Part shown: one piece after another, positions 17,353-49,464 of the stretch
Numbering within the stretch: the stretch's first letter is position 1
Layout: each line of letters opens with the position of its first letter
IMG/VR virus record: IMGVR_UViG_3300023184_000024
Span: 1 to 64,000 of that record
From: a virus
Direction: 5' to 3' (one strand)
Length of the DNA: 64,000 nucleotides
Translations under genes and position numbers: made by a program
The notes under the pieces: model-generated
What the model saw: only the letters and a program-made list of their open reading frames with translations
Told to the model about the DNA's origin: nothing
Database searches by the model: none

Positions 17353-17732
17353 TGGGCCCGCACACTATTGACACGATTGATTCTATCACTCTTGATTCTA
17401 TCAATGTCAATTCTCACACTTATACTACTATAGCTGGTGGAAACATCGGACCGGGATCAGTTCTTACCACCAACGGTTGGTCGCCTAACCCTACATTGAC
17501 GGTGAGCCAAAGTGGCACCATACAGCTCGAAGGCAAAAATGCAGACATCAAAGTAAACGGCGAAAGCATGATGGAAACCCTGCGAGGAATACAGAATCGG
17601 CTTAACATGCTTCGTCCAAACACAGAGTTAGAAGCCGAATGGGACCAGTTACGAGAACTTGGAGAACAGTACAGAAAACTCGAAGCCGAGTTTGAAGAAA
17701 AAAGCAAGATGTGGAACACATTAAAAAAATGA
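17349..17732 (+). CDS. Hypothetical virion-like protein with C-terminal coiled coil (127 aa)
   Basis: ATG 17349 overlaps the epimerase stop by 4 bases; an upstream ATG at 17304 would overlap by 49 bases. The N-terminal half is beta-rich and repetitive in Thr/Ile (IDTIDSITLDSINVNSHTYT). The C-terminal 45 residues (LEAEWDQLRELGEQYRKLEA) form a coiled coil. This layout is reminiscent of phage minor structural or scaffold proteins, but the neighbours are metabolic. Confidence 0.62.
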   Translation: MMGPHTIDTIDSITLDSINVNSHTYTTIAGGNIGPGSVLTTNGWSPNPTLTVSQSGTIQLEGKNADIKVNGESMMETLRGIQNRLNMLRPNTELEAEWDQLRELGEQYRKLEAEFEEKSKMWNTLKK

Positions 17733-18547
17733 AACCTAAACAAAGAATTAATCACATAGTCAAATGGCTTCGTGCCTATGCCAAGAGTGCCAAAATCTCC
17801 ACTTTTGTAGTAGGAATCTCAGGCGGAATTGACAGCTCAGTTGTAAGTGCATTATGCGCCGAAACTGGCCTGAAAACCATTGTGGTACAGATGCCTATTC
17901 GACAGGCCAAGACACTGGACACTCGCAGTAGTATGCAAGCAGGATGGTTGTTGGAACGCTACAAGGACACAGTTACACACATGAGCATGGATCTAACTCC
18001 TGTGTATGCCGCATTTGAAAAGAAAGTTGGGCCATTCTGTTCTGTGGAACAAGAACCCAATGAGTCTGAACAACTGGCATTTGCCAACTCACGTGCTAGA
18101 CTGCGCATGATGACCCTGTATCAAATTGCACAAAGCCATGGTGGCATTGTGGTGGGCACAGGCAACCGGGTAGAAGATTTTGGTGTGGGTTTCTTTACCA
18201 AGTATGGTGATGGTGGAGTAGACATCAGCCCCATCGGTGATTGTCTCAAAACTGAGGTATGGGACATGGGCAGAGAATTTGGCTTGCCACAAGAAATCAT
18301 TGATGCTGCACCAACAGATGGATTGTGGACAGACGGTCGCACAGACGAAGATCAATTGGGCATGAGCTATCCTGAACTGGAACGGGCCATGGCCAATGAC
18401 GCTATAGAACAGCATGATGTATACAACACATTGCCTTTAGAATTGAGCAAAGATGAAAAGTCACAACTCAGGAAGTACCGTGCTATCCGTGCTCGTAACT
18501 TGCACAAGATGATGCCCATTCCTGTGTGCAAGATTGACACACAATGA
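17729..18547 (+). CDS. nadE: NAD+ synthetase NadE (ammonia-dependent type, 272 aa)
   Basis: ATG 17729 overlaps the preceding stop by 4 bases and is preferred over an upstream GTG. The ATP-pyrophosphatase loop SGGIDSS is at 31-37. [32 protein letters not shown] and [14 protein letters not shown] are the conserved deamido-NAD and ATP contact blocks. No glutaminase domain is present, so ammonia is the N donor. The enzyme makes NAD from nicotinate adenine dinucleotide. It overlaps the ferredoxin gene by 4 bases, an unusual pairing that points to redox-cofactor support during infection. Confidence 0.93.
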
Positions 18548-43750: not shown

Positions 43751-44386
43751 ATGCAACTAAAAAGCTTTGGTTGTAGCTTTGTGTTTGGCAGCGACCTGCG
43801 TGATACCGGCACCCATGCTACTCCCAGTCAATTAACTTGGCCCGCACTGTTGGCCCGACAGTTAGGACACGAATATGCGTGTCATGCTTGTCCGGGTGTG
43901 GGCAATCTCTACATACTAGAACAATTATTAAATGAATTAACCAGCAATGATCCTGCTGTGTATGTTGTAAATTGGACCTGGATCGATCGTTTTGATTACA
44001 CAGAGCATGACAATTCCTGGGCCAGTTTGCGTCCTGGCGACGATAACAGCACTGCCAGGTTCTATTATAAAAATCTACATTCTCAATATCGGGACAAGCT
44101 CACAACACTGTCGTTGATCAAGCTGGCAATTGATGCACTCCTACAGAAAAAGCAAAGTTTCATAATGACTTACATGGATGATTTAATCTTTGAAACACAA
44201 TGGCATACCAGTCCTGCCATTGCCAGTATGCAGGAGTATGTGCAGCCGTATCTGCGCAATTTTGATGGTTTGAATTTTTTAGCTTGGGCTCAACACAACA
44301 ACTTTGAAATAAGCCCAACTCTGCACCCACTGGAGGCAGCACACAGTGCCGCTGCCAATTTAATACTGAATCAAAGCTTGGTGTAG
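43751..44386 (+). CDS. SGNH-hydrolase-like protein, copy 1 (211 aa)
   Basis: The N-terminal GCSFVFGSD resembles block I (G-x-S) of SGNH esterases; GVGNLYILEQL resembles block II/III, and HPLEAAHSAAA near the C-terminus supplies the catalytic His box. SGNH enzymes remove acetyl or acyl groups from glycans, or transfer them. It opens the accessory island and has a relative at 50123. It overlaps the convergent methyltransferase gene by 16 bases. Confidence 0.72.
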   Translation: MQLKSFGCSFVFGSDLRDTGTHATPSQLTWPALLARQLGHEYACHACPGVGNLYILEQLLNELTSNDPAVYVVNWTWIDRFDYTEHDNSWASLRPGDDNSTARFYYKNLHSQYRDKLTTLSLIKLAIDALLQKKQSFIMTYMDDLIFETQWHTSPAIASMQEYVQPYLRNFDGLNFLAWAQHNNFEISPTLHPLEAAHSAAANLILNQSLV

Positions 44387-45099
44387 ACAAAATACAGTCT
44401 ATCGTTGGCGTCTTTTTTAAAGGTTTCCAATTTTAAATTGTAGCGTTCTGCAAACTCATTTACTACTTCGAACGTCCAAGGAAATATTTCCACATACGGC
44501 CCTGTCTTGTGCGTGATTCCGGGATTGGCTCGCAAATAGAATCGACCGCCAGGTTTCAATAAATTCACACAGTGTGCAAAACGTGCTTCGATTTCCGCAC
44601 GATCATTGAAGTTTATTGAACCCAGTGCCATGATCACATCATGTGATTCAGGCTTGACCTTGTAGTCTAGAATGTCTACTTCGTAGTCAGCACAGTTGTT
44701 GTAGGGATCAATACCAATTAGGTTGTTGATACGCCCTTTAAACGGATGATATCCACATCCCACGTCTAGCACCCGTTCAGGATTTAGCTTGTTGATTTCT
44801 TCAGCCAACTCCCATCCGGTGTGTTCATAGTCACCAGTCCTGGGCTTCCATATTTCACTGAAGAAACGCAGGATATAGCGTTCACTTAGGTCATTGACAA
44901 TGTCTTTTAATGTGCCTACATAATCGCAGGGCAAGTGCAGTTCTGCTTCCACTGCATCTTTGAACTTTTTGTAACGGGCCGGAGTCCAAGGTAGGTCTTG
45001 TATCTGCGTGTCTGCGTCAACAGTGACGTTGGCGTACTTGGGTAAATTAAAAGAGTCCTGCAAATTTTTGCAGATTAGGTTAAAAATTTTGGTGTTCAT
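44371..45099 (-). CDS. Class I SAM-dependent methyltransferase (242 aa)
   Basis: SAM-binding motif I is VLDVGCGYHPFKG, followed by LIGIDPYN, DYEVDILDY, VIMALGSINF and the post-motif LLKPGGRFYLRANPG. The N-terminal 90 residues are helical. Acceptor unknown; it could be a sugar, lipid or protein. It is transcribed toward the SGNH gene, within the surface-modification island. Confidence 0.86.
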   Translation of the reverse strand: MNTKIFNLICKNLQDSFNLPKYANVTVDADTQIQDLPWTPARYKKFKDAVEAELHLPCDYVGTLKDIVNDLSERYILRFFSEIWKPRTGDYEHTGWELAEEINKLNPERVLDVGCGYHPFKGRINNLIGIDPYNNCADYEVDILDYKVKPESHDVIMALGSINFNDRAEIEARFAHCVNLLKPGGRFYLRANPGITHKTGPYVEIFPWTFEVVNEFAERYNLKLETFKKDANDRLYFVYTKL

Positions 45100-45116: not shown

Positions 45117-45191
45117 ACTTAGAATTTTTACAAGACCACTAAAATTTTTAATCAGTGCCTTGTTTTTGATTATACTATTTAAGGAGTTACA

Positions 45192-46169
45192 ATGTCAATC
45201 AAAAAATTATTGCTAGCCGCTTTATTAATGCCAATTATGGCATTTGCTTGGGAACCCACCAAACCTGTACAGGTTTATATTGGAAATACACCGGGCGCAG
45301 GTAACGAAATGGCCTTTAGGAAACTGGCTGAAATCGTTCAGAAACATAATCCCAAATTTGTTTATGTTGTACAAAACATTCCCGGGGCAGATTCAGTTAT
45401 TGCTAACAACCGGTTTTTAGAAGCACCCAATGATGGCTATACAATTAACTTGCCCAGCCACATGAGTAGCTATGTTACAAATGACATTTGGGAAAAGTCA
45501 ATTAAGAAATACAATTATGACTCATTTATTGATGTGCTCACAATGGGCAAATCACCATTGGTCCTAGTTGCTGGTGTCAAAAGCGGCATCAACACCCCAC
45601 AGGAGTTTGTGAAGTATATTCAAAGTGGTAGAACAATCAGTATTGCCATTGGTGGAGGCGCACATCGTACAGCATTTGAATACTTAATGGAAAAAGGTCG
45701 GGGCAATAAAGACACAGTCAAACCTATTAAATTTAACGGTCCAATGCCAGCCGTGACCAGTGCCGCAAGCTATGATGGTAAAACAGGTACGGAATTTGCT
45801 ATTATTCCTATTGCGGTTGCAAAAGCATTAGTTGACGCGGGCAAGGTTAAACCAATTGGCTTTACTGGTACACAACGGATGGCACAGTTTCCTAATGTTC
45901 CGTTGTTGCGTGATGTAGCACCTGGCATCAATGTGTATGCTGCCTGGAGTATTCAATTGCCGCCTGGGACAAGTAAAGATATTGTTGAGTGGTACCAACA
46001 GCAGTTTAGCAAAGCAGTGCGTTCAGCAGAGTACAAAGAATACACAGATGCCAATGTTATATTCTACGCAGAAGATGAACTTACACCTGCAGGATTAAAG
46101 CGTCACATGGATGAACTACGTGCGGCATTTATTCCTGTGTTAAGCAAAATTGATTTAGGTAAAGAATGA
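45192..46169 (+). CDS. Bug/TctC-type periplasmic solute-binding protein (325 aa)
   Basis: Residues 1-19 are a Sec signal peptide ending AFA. The mature protein has the Bug family layout: VQVYIGNTPGAGNEMAFRKL near the start, VVQNIPGADSVIANNRFLEA, GYTINLPSHMSS, GAHRTAFEYLME, and KVKPIGFTGTQRMAQFPNVP, then VYAAWSIQLPPGTSKDIVEW. These proteins capture carboxylates for tripartite tricarboxylate transporters. No membrane subunits are encoded here, so it would have to work with host TctAB or act otherwise. A phage-borne copy is unusual; AAGGAG precedes the start. The next gene follows at once. Confidence 0.92.
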   Translation: MSIKKLLLAALLMPIMAFAWEPTKPVQVYIGNTPGAGNEMAFRKLAEIVQKHNPKFVYVVQNIPGADSVIANNRFLEAPNDGYTINLPSHMSSYVTNDIWEKSIKKYNYDSFIDVLTMGKSPLVLVAGVKSGINTPQEFVKYIQSGRTISIAIGGGAHRTAFEYLMEKGRGNKDTVKPIKFNGPMPAVTSAASYDGKTGTEFAIIPIAVAKALVDAGKVKPIGFTGTQRMAQFPNVPLLRDVAPGINVYAAWSIQLPPGTSKDIVEWYQQQFSKAVRSAEYKEYTDANVIFYAEDELTPAGLKRHMDELRAAFIPVLSKIDLGKE

Positions 46170-46748
46170 ATGTCTTTACCTAAAAGAATATTCTTTGCAG
46201 GTGTACCAGGATCTCGTTGGTCCGGGGTTGCACAACTATTAGAAACTGTACCAGGGTTTAACACAAGCGATCGCACACCCGAGCGCACGTTTATCTTTAA
46301 ACCCTTTTCAGATCATTTAGGCGCATACTTTGGTTCGGGCATGGAATTCCCACTGGATTTAAACCCTGCTAATATTGATAGCGCACACACTACATTGGAT
46401 GGCTGTAGATTAATTAAAGCACATGAGTGGGCATACCATTTAGATGCAATTAAGCAACAGTACCCCGAAGATTGGATCATAATGGTATATCGTCCAGACA
46501 CTATTAGTTTTGCCTGGTGGAATGGTGCAGGCGGGTTTAATATTACATATCCCAAGTATGATGCATTTAAAGATGCCACAAATATGATGTGTGAAATCGC
46601 GCAAATGAATAAATCTATCCTGGAGTTTTCGTATAAACACAATGCGACTTGGAATCATTTAACACCCCAATGGGTATTAGATAATTTTGGTGTCAACAGA
46701 GAAGTTGACCACAAGTTTCATGACATGCTAATTACTATTATAAAATGA
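46170..46748 (+). CDS. Sulfotransferase-like P-loop protein A (192 aa)
   Basis: The 5'-phosphosulfate-loop-like motif FAGVPGSRWSGV lies at 9-20, and VYRPDTISFAWWNGAGGFNI resembles the 3'-phosphate-binding region of PAPS-dependent sulfotransferases. It begins directly after the binding-protein stop and overlaps the next, related protein by 4 bases. The family is common in marine T4-like phages with unproven activity. Acceptor unknown. Confidence 0.7.
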   Translation: MSLPKRIFFAGVPGSRWSGVAQLLETVPGFNTSDRTPERTFIFKPFSDHLGAYFGSGMEFPLDLNPANIDSAHTTLDGCRLIKAHEWAYHLDAIKQQYPEDWIIMVYRPDTISFAWWNGAGGFNITYPKYDAFKDATNMMCEIAQMNKSILEFSYKHNATWNHLTPQWVLDNFGVNREVDHKFHDMLITIIK

Positions 46749-47374
46749 AATATATCTTTGTAGCCGGTGCTCCTGGCAGTAAATGGAGCAGTGTAGTCAA
46801 AAACATCTACTATAGTCCTGATATCGATCGGTCAGACTATAGAGATGAATGGACTTATTATCATGACGCTTCGGGTACTCGGGAACTAATGCACCTGGGT
46901 GCTTACTTTGACCCGGGAATGATTAGCCCGTTGCCTGAGGATTTGACCACGTTGTCAAGGCAGCAACTAGAAGAGATATTTGCTGAGCCATTTCAATTTA
47001 AAGAATCTCGAGGTGTGCGCATTATCAAAAGCCATGTGTTCTCAAATCACATTGACTATTTGCGCGAACTATTCCCTGAAACACCCATTGTAATCGTGCA
47101 TCGCAGTGATGACGCCTGCCTGGGCTGGTGGGTCAAGTGTGGTCATTTCGACATCACTTATCCTGATTATCATGAGTATTTTAAAGATTTAAAAACAATG
47201 GCCCGTATCATTAAAAGCCAAAATGCAGACATCTTAACAGCATGGTGGAAATACAATGATTGTCCGGTAATGGACAACAATCTTCGATTGGCTGCGGCCT
47301 TGGGCATAGATGCACCTCCCCCAGAATACACACAAGAATATGCAGTAAACGACATAAGGGTAAAAGTAATATGA
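46745..47374 (+). CDS. Sulfotransferase-like P-loop protein B (209 aa)
   Basis: It is paralogous to the preceding protein: FVAGAPGSKWSSVV at 5-18, LGAYFDPGM, VRIIKSHVFSNHIDYLREL, VIVHRSDDACLGWWVKCGHF, then DITYPDYHEYFKD. The HRSD region is the 3'-phosphate contact. Tandem duplication with divergence suggests two acceptors or a heteromer. It overlaps the oxygenase gene by 4 bases. Confidence 0.7.
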   Translation: MKYIFVAGAPGSKWSSVVKNIYYSPDIDRSDYRDEWTYYHDASGTRELMHLGAYFDPGMISPLPEDLTTLSRQQLEEIFAEPFQFKESRGVRIIKSHVFSNHIDYLRELFPETPIVIVHRSDDACLGWWVKCGHFDITYPDYHEYFKDLKTMARIIKSQNADILTAWWKYNDCPVMDNNLRLAAALGIDAPPPEYTQEYAVNDIRVKVI

Positions 47375-48036
47375 TAACAGACGAATTTAAAAGCAGTTGG
47401 GATTTCACTAAAAGCACCAGCACATACCATTTTGATCCTACGAAACTGGATCGTTTTGAAGATGTGATCGCACATCTTGGACACATTGAACCCACCTGGA
47501 CAGCGGATGTAGCAGACATTGTTGCTAATAGCAAGCCAGCAACCTGGGAAACACGTGGCTACAAAGGCGAGGGCGTGCTGCCTCCACGTGAAGATTTGGC
47601 GGCCGAAGAATATGACCTAGAGCGTGTGGGTGCAGACCCAAAAATGACAATCACTCATTTAAATTGGAACATGCCCGAATCGCTTAAAAAGATTTCCCGG
47701 CAATTTGCTCTAGATGACTGCATGGAGCGTATTCACGTGCAACGCCCGGGGGAGGTGTGGAATCTACACATGGATAAACTACAGAAATGGAACCCCGAAG
47801 ATCCCAGTCGTATAATGCGTATCTTTGTTCAGCTCACAGACTGGCAGCCAGGGCAGTTCTGGGAGTACGGCAACCATCACTGGAATCAATGGCGTGCCGG
47901 CGATGTTTCAACCTTTGACTGGGCCAACATGCCACACAGCACAGCCAATGCAGGACACCATCCCCGAGTTACACTACAGTTAACAGGCGTTATCACTGAT
48001 CGCACACAAGAATACTTGGCCAATATACCCAGATGA
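47371..48036 (+). CDS. 2OG-Fe(II)/Asp-beta-hydroxylase-like oxygenase (221 aa)
   Basis: ATG 47371 overlaps the upstream stop (ATGA). The iron site is His133-x-Asp135 (NLHMDK) and His189 (MPHSTAN), with Arg199 after it as 2-oxoglutarate contact; VQLTDWQPGQFWEYGNHHWN, then WRAGDVSTFDW, forms the beta-helix core. It should hydroxylate a small molecule, lipid or protein side chain. It is translationally coupled with sulfotransferase-like genes on both sides, so hydroxylation may create the site that is sulfated. Confidence 0.8.
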   Translation: MITDEFKSSWDFTKSTSTYHFDPTKLDRFEDVIAHLGHIEPTWTADVADIVANSKPATWETRGYKGEGVLPPREDLAAEEYDLERVGADPKMTITHLNWNMPESLKKISRQFALDDCMERIHVQRPGEVWNLHMDKLQKWNPEDPSRIMRIFVQLTDWQPGQFWEYGNHHWNQWRAGDVSTFDWANMPHSTANAGHHPRVTLQLTGVITDRTQEYLANIPR

Positions 48037-48659
48037 AAACACTGTTGATCATTACTGGCCCACAAGGCTCAGGCAATCATTTATGGAGCAAGATCTTTGC
48101 ACTACATCCTGATGTACATGGTTGGCATGCTCTGCTACACGAATACTGGATAGGGCATGATCAGGAGCCTTTTGCGGCCTATTGGGAGAACCCCGATTTA
48201 CTTCAAGATTTTGACTGGAGTCGTTGTGATCATTATGTCACCAGTGTCAGCACACCTTACATGCTCAACGGTGAGCGCACTGTGCCCAACATTGTGCAGT
48301 TTGCTGCCACTGCCATGGGACTGGGTATATGTGTAAAAATTGCCATCATAGGTCGTGATCGTAATATATTAACCTATCAAGAACAGCGTGTGCGTGGCGA
48401 TGCCACCTATGATACAGCATTAAAAGAATATGAAAAACTCAGGACCTGGAGCCCGGTGTTCTTGAGTTATGAATTACTGCATCTTTATCGGGATCTTTAT
48501 CTACAACAAATTGCCAATCAATTGGAATTCCCTGTGGATTACTCTAGTGCCCAGCTGGCAAATATTTTAACAGATGATACTAACAGTAAATATTTCAACC
48601 CTGTGGATCATCATCCCACTGATGATCTAGCACGACACTCTTCAAGGAAATGGAAATAA
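48033..48659 (+). CDS. Sulfotransferase-like P-loop protein C (208 aa)
   Basis: P-loop TGPQGSGNHLWSKIF lies at 8-22, and IAIIGRDRNILTYQEQRVRG provides the R-D pair typical of the 3'-phosphate site. HPDVHGWHALLHEYW and the C-terminal HHPTDDLARHS are His rich. It is coupled to the oxygenase (4-base overlap) and 1 base from the kinase fusion. It differs in sequence from proteins A and B. Confidence 0.68.
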   Translation: MKTLLIITGPQGSGNHLWSKIFALHPDVHGWHALLHEYWIGHDQEPFAAYWENPDLLQDFDWSRCDHYVTSVSTPYMLNGERTVPNIVQFAATAMGLGICVKIAIIGRDRNILTYQEQRVRGDATYDTALKEYEKLRTWSPVFLSYELLHLYRDLYLQQIANQLEFPVDYSSAQLANILTDDTNSKYFNPVDHHPTDDLARHSSRKWK

Positions 48660-48660
48660 C

Positions 48661-49464
48661 ATGCCACAACGTATATTAATCATGGGCTTGCCTGGCGCAG
48701 GCAAAACATATCTAGCACAGCACATACTCGAACACTTGCAAAACGAAAAGAAACGAGTGCAATGGCTCAACGCTGACGATGTGCGTAAAAAATACAATGA
48801 CTGGGATTTCAGTCACGAAGGACGTATTCGCCAAAGTCTGCGCATGCGAGAACTAGCAGATGCCATGACTGATGTAGACTATGTTATCTGCGACTTTGTT
48901 GCTCCGCTGGTTGAAATGCGCAACAACTTCAAAGCAGATTGGACCGTCTGGGTTGATACCATAGACAAGGGCAGATACGAAGACACTAATCGAGCCTTTG
49001 TCCCTCCCGAAGTCTACGACTTCAGAATCACAGAACAACACGGGGAAAAGTGGGGCGAGTTTGTTGCCGCACACATACTAGATAATCGTCGTCGTCCTGT
49101 ATTTGATTGGCAGCGAGAAACAGTGCAGATGTTGGGTCGCTGGCAGCCTTGGCATGCCGGTCACCGTGCATTATTTGAACGAGCCATAGCCAAAACTGGG
49201 CAAGTTTGTATAATGATCCGGGATTGTCAGGGCTGGCAGGGATCCAACCCTTTTGCCATAGAACAAGTCAAAGGGTATATTCGACGAGACCTAGACATGC
49301 TGTATCAAGGGCAGTATGAAATACAAGTTGTGCCCAACATTGTCAACATCACCTACGGCAGAGATGTGGGTTATCGGATTGAACAAGAATCATTTGATGC
49401 TGCCACACACTCTATTTCAGCTACTAAAATACGAAAAGAATTAAAAGACCAAGGTCTTTTATAA
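48661..49464 (+). CDS. APS-kinase-like domain fused to a nucleotidyltransferase domain (267 aa)
   Basis: Residues 1-125 resemble adenylylsulfate kinase: GLPGAGKT at 9-16, WLNADDVRKKYNDWDFSHEG, then RIRQSLRMRELADAM, and VICDFVAPLVEMR. Residues 150-267 form an HxGH nucleotidyltransferase: GRWQPWHAGH (159-168) and ISATKIR (252-258). With sulfotransferase-like neighbours, PAPS synthesis is the attractive reading, but the second domain looks more like NMN- or CTP-type transferases than ATP sulfurylase. NAD salvage (NadR-like, order reversed) is the main alternative. Confidence 0.75.
   Translation: MPQRILIMGLPGAGKTYLAQHILEHLQNEKKRVQWLNADDVRKKYNDWDFSHEGRIRQSLRMRELADAMTDVDYVICDFVAPLVEMRNNFKADWTVWVDTIDKGRYEDTNRAFVPPEVYDFRITEQHGEKWGEFVAAHILDNRRRPVFDWQRETVQMLGRWQPWHAGHRALFERAIAKTGQVCIMIRDCQGWQGSNPFAIEQVKGYIRRDLDMLYQGQYEIQVVPNIVNITYGRDVGYRIEQESFDAATHSISATKIRKELKDQGLL

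Follow-up and report, generated by a model that had tools for sequence, protein, structure and literature searches.

A solute-binding protein of the tripartite tricarboxylate transporter (TTT) family, here named TctC1, is encoded by a gene that we find to be resident and conserved in phage genomes and not a host contaminant. The recurrence of this gene, together with a cluster of enzyme genes, in dozens of related uncultured giant phages suggests that these phages aid the uptake of organic acids by their hosts and then process the acid. We think it somewhat probable that exported TctC1 binds a carboxylate, feeds a host (rarely a phage) TctA permease, and in this way supplies a phage metabolic pathway. 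The window, by which we mean the whole 64-kb stretch of DNA analyzed here, sits within a 352,754-bp virus record. Judged by its clamp loader, this phage has its nearest named relatives in the PA5oct-like Pseudomonas jumbo phages, whose clamp loaders are 58% identical.

The following features define the gene and its predicted product:

45181-45186, plus strand: Shine-Dalgarno sequence AAGGAG upstream of TctC1; the context TATTTAAGGA is also found in most of the orthologues inspected
45192-46169, plus strand: TctC1, TctC/Bug-type solute-binding protein with predicted export (PF03401, fold, 65 viral loci)
45192-45248, plus strand: codons of the putative signal peptide, residues 1-19, ending in AFA (A-x-A in the sequence) before Trp20
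45282-45308, plus strand: predicted beta1-alpha1 ligand loop, residues 31-39, GNTPGAGNE, replacing the TTT signature PFxAGGxxD (alignment)
45651-45671, plus strand: predicted second pincer loop, residues 154-160, GGGAHRT (alignment with TphC)

The initial annotation had described a full-length, signal-peptide-bearing TctC/Bug protein directly abutting the next gene, and this description holds. The open reading frame is intact and encodes 325 amino acids, its product scores 75.7 bits on the PF03401 (TctC) profile, for which the cut-off is 27 (E 5.5e-21), and the ATG of the following gene lies at 46170, 0 bases behind the stop codon. No PHROGs family matched TctC1. By eye and by hydropathy the N-terminus, MSIKKLLLAALLMPIMAFA^W, is signal-peptide-like, with a Lys-rich start and a hydrophobic core, and the complete homologues inspected likewise begin with a Lys-rich hydrophobic segment. 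It reads as a Sec signal peptide, and the protein is probably periplasmic. On the minus strand, a perfect sigma-70 consensus (TTGACA-18-TATAAT, 45198-45169) overlaps the TctC1 start codon and could be the promoter of the divergent methyltransferase gene described below. The T4-type late promoter TATAAATA showed no excess within the 64-kb window and did not occur near TctC1.

An AlphaFold2 model of TctC1, built from 19 phage orthologues and of moderate quality (mean pLDDT 72, pTM 0.59), predicts a two-domain type II binding-protein fold that is closest to TctC structures. In a Foldseek search of the PDB the top 17 matches were all TctC/Bug structures. VIA-align Z scores reached 24.6 for Bug27 and 23.7 for TphC (20-24.6 across TctC structures), compared with 14.1 for the best binding protein outside the TctC group. 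TTT binding proteins grip the carboxylate of the ligand between two pincer loops, the first of which carries the motif PFxAGGxxD (PMC8556258, PMC5812351). This signature is near-universal rather than defining, since some Bugs are without it (PMC5812351). TctC1 does not carry it either: GNTPGAGNE retains one Gly and has Glu in place of Asp. Seven of its nine residues are invariant among the 19 orthologues (the exceptions are T33 and P34), and both pincer loops are almost invariant over orthologues at 74-91% identity. In the second loop, which is three residues shorter than that of TphC, His158 aligns with TphC His157. Where TphC has Phe30, the aromatic residue that the signature places in the pocket, TctC1 has Asn. 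The direct TphC contacts T155 and T242 and the pocket-narrowing Q150 are not retained, so terephthalate is an unlikely ligand. Going by its altered and mostly invariant loop residues, TctC1 would keep a binding site with a specificity of its own. The departure of GNTPGAGNE from PFxAGGxxD makes the ligand class uncertain; the ligand is presumably a carboxylate.

All relatives of TctC1 found here lie on metagenomic contigs. A first scan of IMG/VR returned 27 loci at 73-91% identity, at many of which the clamp loader, PhoH and endolysin genes are in place as neighbors. From the 153 stretches matched in a broader scan 80 were retained, and a second scan was started from a divergent branch (36-37% identical). 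Combined, the scans gave 93 TctC1 loci, 65 of them non-redundant, at 36-91% identity and on contigs of up to 524 kb. Most of the 65 share the same cluster: a divergent methyltransferase, TctC, P-loop sulfotransferase-like proteins, an oxygenase-like protein and an APS-kinase/nucleotidyltransferase. Chimeric assembly with bacterial flanks, which would have undone the initial claim that the gene is phage-borne, is excluded by this recurrence of gene and neighborhood across non-redundant viral loci. The same annotation proposed a search of other phage genomes, which succeeded in IMG/VR and failed in INPHARED. The sole INPHARED match, MT836965, was rejected as a phage: the entry (MT836965.1, L109, "Bacteriophage sp.") carries GntR-like, DapA-like, TctC, TctB-like and TctA-like genes and is apparently bacterial DNA, a TctCBA scaffold labeled as phage.

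Of 11 local genes, TctC1 has the lowest median pN/pS, 0.177 as computed against 18 orthologues, at a median pS of 0.70, which is near saturation. The neighbors range from 0.193 (methyltransferase) and 0.194 (APS-kinase gene) to 0.317 (endolysin), 0.333 (PhoH) and 0.339 (clamp loader). TctC1 is therefore under strong purifying selection. A tree that also includes its paralogues and eight sequences from plasmids or scaffolds places TctC1 in a single clade (100/100) on a long stem with no bacteria inside; the tree has only eight bacterial rows, its bootstrap is not settled and its deep forks are open. A tblastn search of 72,556 plasmids gave best matches at about 24-31% identity. On these two grounds a recent bacterial donor was rejected within the plasmid and scaffold sequences sampled, and the phylogeny that had been proposed as a way to find the donor yielded a phage-only clade instead.

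TctC1 is flanked by the following genes:

44371-45099, minus strand: divergent SAM methyltransferase-like gene (Methyltransf_25 E 3e-4, under the cut-off)
46170-46748, plus strand: ST1, P-loop sulfotransferase-like, often absent in relatives (34% identity to ST2; no Pfam family of its own)
46745-47374, plus strand: ST2, P-loop sulfotransferase-like (PF13469 E 2.3e-4, below the cut-off)
47371-48036, plus strand: putative 2OG-Fe(II) oxygenase-like protein (invariant HxD...H...R pattern, read from sequence only)
48033-48659, plus strand: second P-loop protein, GPQGSGNH, conserved in the cluster (alignment; at least 46 of 65 loci)
48661-49464, plus strand: APS-kinase-like P-loop domain plus HxGH nucleotidyltransferase domain (PF01583 E 3e-12)

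The initial annotation placed TctC1 at the head of a sulfotransferase operon. Sulfotransferase-like genes do follow it; the label itself is tentative, as it comes from a match of one gene, ST2, to PF13469 that stays under the cut-off (21.9 bits against 27) and is seen in 5 of 12 family members. A PDB sequence search gave no significant match for the ST2 family, and neither Pfam nor a PDB sequence search gave one for the oxygenase-like protein, so both names are weak. The gene at 48661-49464 also matches APS kinase and PAPS synthetase, and its C-terminus hits NMNAT-type models at E about 1e-5, far under their cut-offs. Among the 65 non-redundant loci, which span 5-6 kb or end at contig ends so that counts are lower bounds, a methyltransferase is nearby in at least 59, the oxygenase-like gene in at least 55, ST2 in at least 53, the second P-loop gene in at least 46 and the APS-kinase/nucleotidyltransferase in at least 32. 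ST2 directly follows TctC1 in 50 of the 65; the gap behind TctC1 has a median of -4 bases, so translation of TctC1 and the gene after it is probably coupled. In 23 loci the surroundings of TctC1 include a class-I glutamine amidotransferase (PF07722/PF00117).

Two further neighbors were noticed in relatives. A protein of about 235 residues (KQFVNELVENNQ...DEALHYRLVKEVIEHI) recurs beside TctC1 in L178 (6654-7361) and 24 further loci; it has no credible Pfam match and, by eye, looks like a helical diiron protein. On viral contig L184 (6006-8755) a complete DnaK (PF00012, E 1e-256) lies downstream of TctC1, with Hsp20-like and ClpS-like genes recognized by eye.

The same phage carries a second, canonical TctC (TctC2) at about 141.4-142.3 kb of the record, and related records hold up to three TctCs each. 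As a query, TctC2 found no relatives among IMG/VR viral contigs. Directly adjoining it is a gene for a 382-aa protein with a YSGGSDS motif. The cluster around TctC1 in the window is without such a PP-loop gene, which lies some 94 kb away beside TctC2. PP-loop genes also stand beside TctC in records G001, G003/G004, G006 and G009. TctCs other than TctC1 adjoin a gene of this ATP-pyrophosphatase-like kind in five of the six lineages examined. A profile of four PP-loop proteins found exactly one member per record in 7 of 15 records, next to TctC in six and next to TctA in one. When IMG/VR was scanned with three PP-loop queries and the neighbors were tested with the TctC profile, TctC was adjacent or one gene away at 10 of 15 non-redundant loci at up to 64% identity to the query; the queries had originally been picked for lying beside TctC, which biases near-identical loci and divergent ones much less. 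In G006 and in L090, L122, L126, L189, L193, L194 and L198, a single cluster unites TctC1 and TctC2 with ST2, the oxygenase-like gene and the PP-loop gene. In L143 the order is TctC1, ST2, oxygenase-like gene, second P-loop gene, PP-loop gene and two DctP (TRAP-type) proteins.

Within the SGGxDS motif, S81, G83 and D85 are invariant in 26 members. The model of the PP-loop protein, a confident one (pLDDT 87, pTM 0.89), has its best Foldseek matches mostly among PP-loop enzymes (E 7e-4; carbapenam, beta-lactam, GMP and NAD synthetases and LarE), matches that are partial, with TM 0.2-0.3 over the query. The neighbor of the paralogous TctCs thus has the PP-loop motif and, as modeled, the PP-loop fold. 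Enzymes of this class use ATP to activate a carboxyl or carbonyl group, and the phage protein may do the same.

Several other arrangements involve these genes. DctP proteins (TRAP-type, PF03480) stand beside the PP-loop gene in L068 (4298-5251), L070 (2934-3878), L071 (5231-6187), L073 (5170-6162) and L143 (9244-10972); since the four N-termini inspected are without a signal peptide, they may act in the cytoplasm. In G003 (L051, 4131-6541) a third TctC lies directly behind an AMP-binding (adenylate-forming) ligase, between gp46/gp47-like recombination genes. Viral contig L085 (476-6097) has genes for a cytochrome P450, a monooxygenase-like protein, a PP-loop protein, TctC and an acyl-transferase (PF00698) close by, a grouping reminiscent of a biosynthetic cluster, and on viral contig L083 (4110-6563) TctC adjoins a carbamoyltransferase gene (PF16861/PF02543).

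Permease genes are rare. Two of 41 related records, G005 and G022, encode TctA, which is absent from G000, the record of this phage; TctB was found in 0 of 15 records, a poorly conserved protein that may have been missed. Transport in this phage would therefore depend on a host permease. For bacteria, orphan TctCs without TctAB are the norm (PMC5812351, PMC8556258). The two TctA genes form clusters with a PP-loop gene and a binding protein (G005: L049, 7809-11221; G022: L211, 4842-8224) in differing gene order. The TctAs are 29% identical to each other and the binding proteins match the phage TctC profile moderately (26-32 bits), so these clusters look like separate or old acquisitions.

The route that we favor would run as follows. 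TctC1, made by the phage and exported to the periplasm, would capture one particular carboxylate and pass it to a TctA(B)-type permease of the host, so that the infected cell would import the acid. The acid or its product could then be used by a phage-encoded pathway with genes in the TctC1 cluster or elsewhere in the genome; candidates are the PP-loop enzyme, the glutamine amidotransferase (in relatives), the methyltransferase, the oxygenase-like and sulfotransferase-like proteins and the APS kinase/nucleotidyltransferase. A boost to uptake through host TctAB had been suggested at the outset; the phage TctA beside a binding protein in two relatives and the phage porins described below lend it indirect support.

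The scarcity of TctB (0 of 15 records) and of TctA (absent in 39 of 41) would also suit the other initial suggestion, a protein that intercepts signals, binding a periplasmic metabolite and acting on a host sensor kinase or on Bug/TctAB traffic with no import at all. Orphan Bugs are suspected of signaling roles in bacteria (PMC5812351), and the sensor domains of BvgS and EvgS share the general fold (Z 13), as do all type II binding proteins. We nevertheless consider such a role unlikely, in view of the two relatives with TctA adjoining the binding protein and the PP-loop gene, the constant linkage to enzyme genes, and the neighbors of TctC1, among which no regulator gene was seen.

Porins and modification enzymes are classical tools for changing a cell surface, and a Gram-negative porin (Porin_4, PF13609) is encoded in 9 of 21 records, including this phage at 318,953-319,840, mostly far from the TctC genes. 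TctC1, the porins and the sulfotransferase-like genes might together alter the envelope and block other phages, with ligand binding a vestige, as the altered signature of the ligand loop could indicate. Such superinfection exclusion or surface remodeling appears quite unlikely: the pocket loops are almost invariant, unlike those of an arms-race protein, pN/pS is 0.18, and the TctC genes are linked to PP-loop and TctA genes. The porin of L068 bears on the host as well. Its plasmid relatives are Burkholderiales in nine of nine cases, a hint that the host belongs to this group, which is rich in orphan Bugs; the initial guess of a host with many such systems is thus plausible.

The window also encodes an enzyme that could be relevant to a pyridine-carboxylate ligand:

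17711-18547, plus strand: phage NAD+ synthase NadE (PF02540 E 2e-51)

TctC1 and its paralogues could on this basis bind quinolinate or nicotinate and feed NadE and the NMNAT-like domain at 48661-49464. The idea is attractive because of NadE, encoded in the window as well as in 10 of 15 related records, and because of the affinity of Bug27/69 for quinolinate (Kd 70-136 nM; PMC11452294), Bug27 being the closest fold to TctC1; in G009, nadE lies about 2 kb from a TctC. We hold it to be very unlikely all the same. The signature aromatic is Asn in TctC1, the nucleotidyltransferase domain matches NMNAT models far under their cut-offs, and salvage of nicotinate was rejected after a search for NAPRTase-family genes gave no match in 15 records. 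Finally, a passenger gene or assembly chimera without phage function, for which the great abundance of TctC genes in Burkholderiales and hence easy chance capture might speak, deserves next to no credence in the face of 65 non-redundant loci with mostly the same cluster and of a low pN/pS at a median pS of 0.70, with no relaxed selection.

Uptake of a carboxylate for phage metabolism thus remains our preferred reading. A more far-reaching version is a tentative possibility: a jumbo-phage pathway of import and activation in which an outer-membrane porin, exported TctC, sometimes TctA, a cytoplasmic PP-loop enzyme (with glutamine amidotransferase) activating the acid, and tailoring enzymes would make a small molecule or modification of the phage's own from an imported precursor. 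With a TctC cluster conserved across dozens of jumbo phages, the range of phage uptake genes would widen to organic acids. Binding protein and PP-loop gene, repeatedly paired and sometimes joined by TctA, offer a testable route to a phage metabolic pathway. The finding also provides a handle on the ligands of the very large family of orphan Bugs.

We found no report of a phage TctC in the open-access literature, in agreement with the initial remark that a phage binding protein of this type was unfamiliar. The only viral TTT mention found concerns SUP05 viral contigs with a tctA domain hit (PMC4164917), a case alike in that a TTT component is reported on a viral contig; there, the contigs were called by a non-reference method, the domain is TctA only, and neither TctC nor a conserved cluster is reported. 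With the orphan Bugs of Burkholderiales (Bug27, BugD, TphC, MatC) TctC1 shares PF03401, the two-domain fold (Z 20-25), a signal peptide and the lack of linked TctAB. It differs in being phage-encoded, in its identity of about 20% to solved members, in the GNTPGAGNE loop, in its own long-stemmed clade and in its linkage to a phage cluster. The PP-loop protein beside the paralogues shares the SGGxDS motif and core fold with PP-loop ATP pyrophosphatases (beta-lactam/carbapenam, GMP and NAD synthetases, LarE), and is set apart by its length of about 390 residues, its partial structural match and a family without Pfam or PDB sequence match and with at most a marginal PHROG match.

The known uptake genes carried by phages mostly serve phosphate supply, and cyanophages encode PstS phosphate-binding proteins. 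Like PstS, TctC1 is the binding protein of an uptake system of the host, carried by a phage and predicted to be exported. PstS is an ABC-type binder of phosphate, whereas TctC1 is of the TTT type and carboxylate class and its relatives come with paralogues, a PP-loop gene and sometimes a permease. As a phage-borne uptake gene, TctC1 is of a known kind; the module of PP-loop gene, TctC and TctA is possibly the larger novelty.
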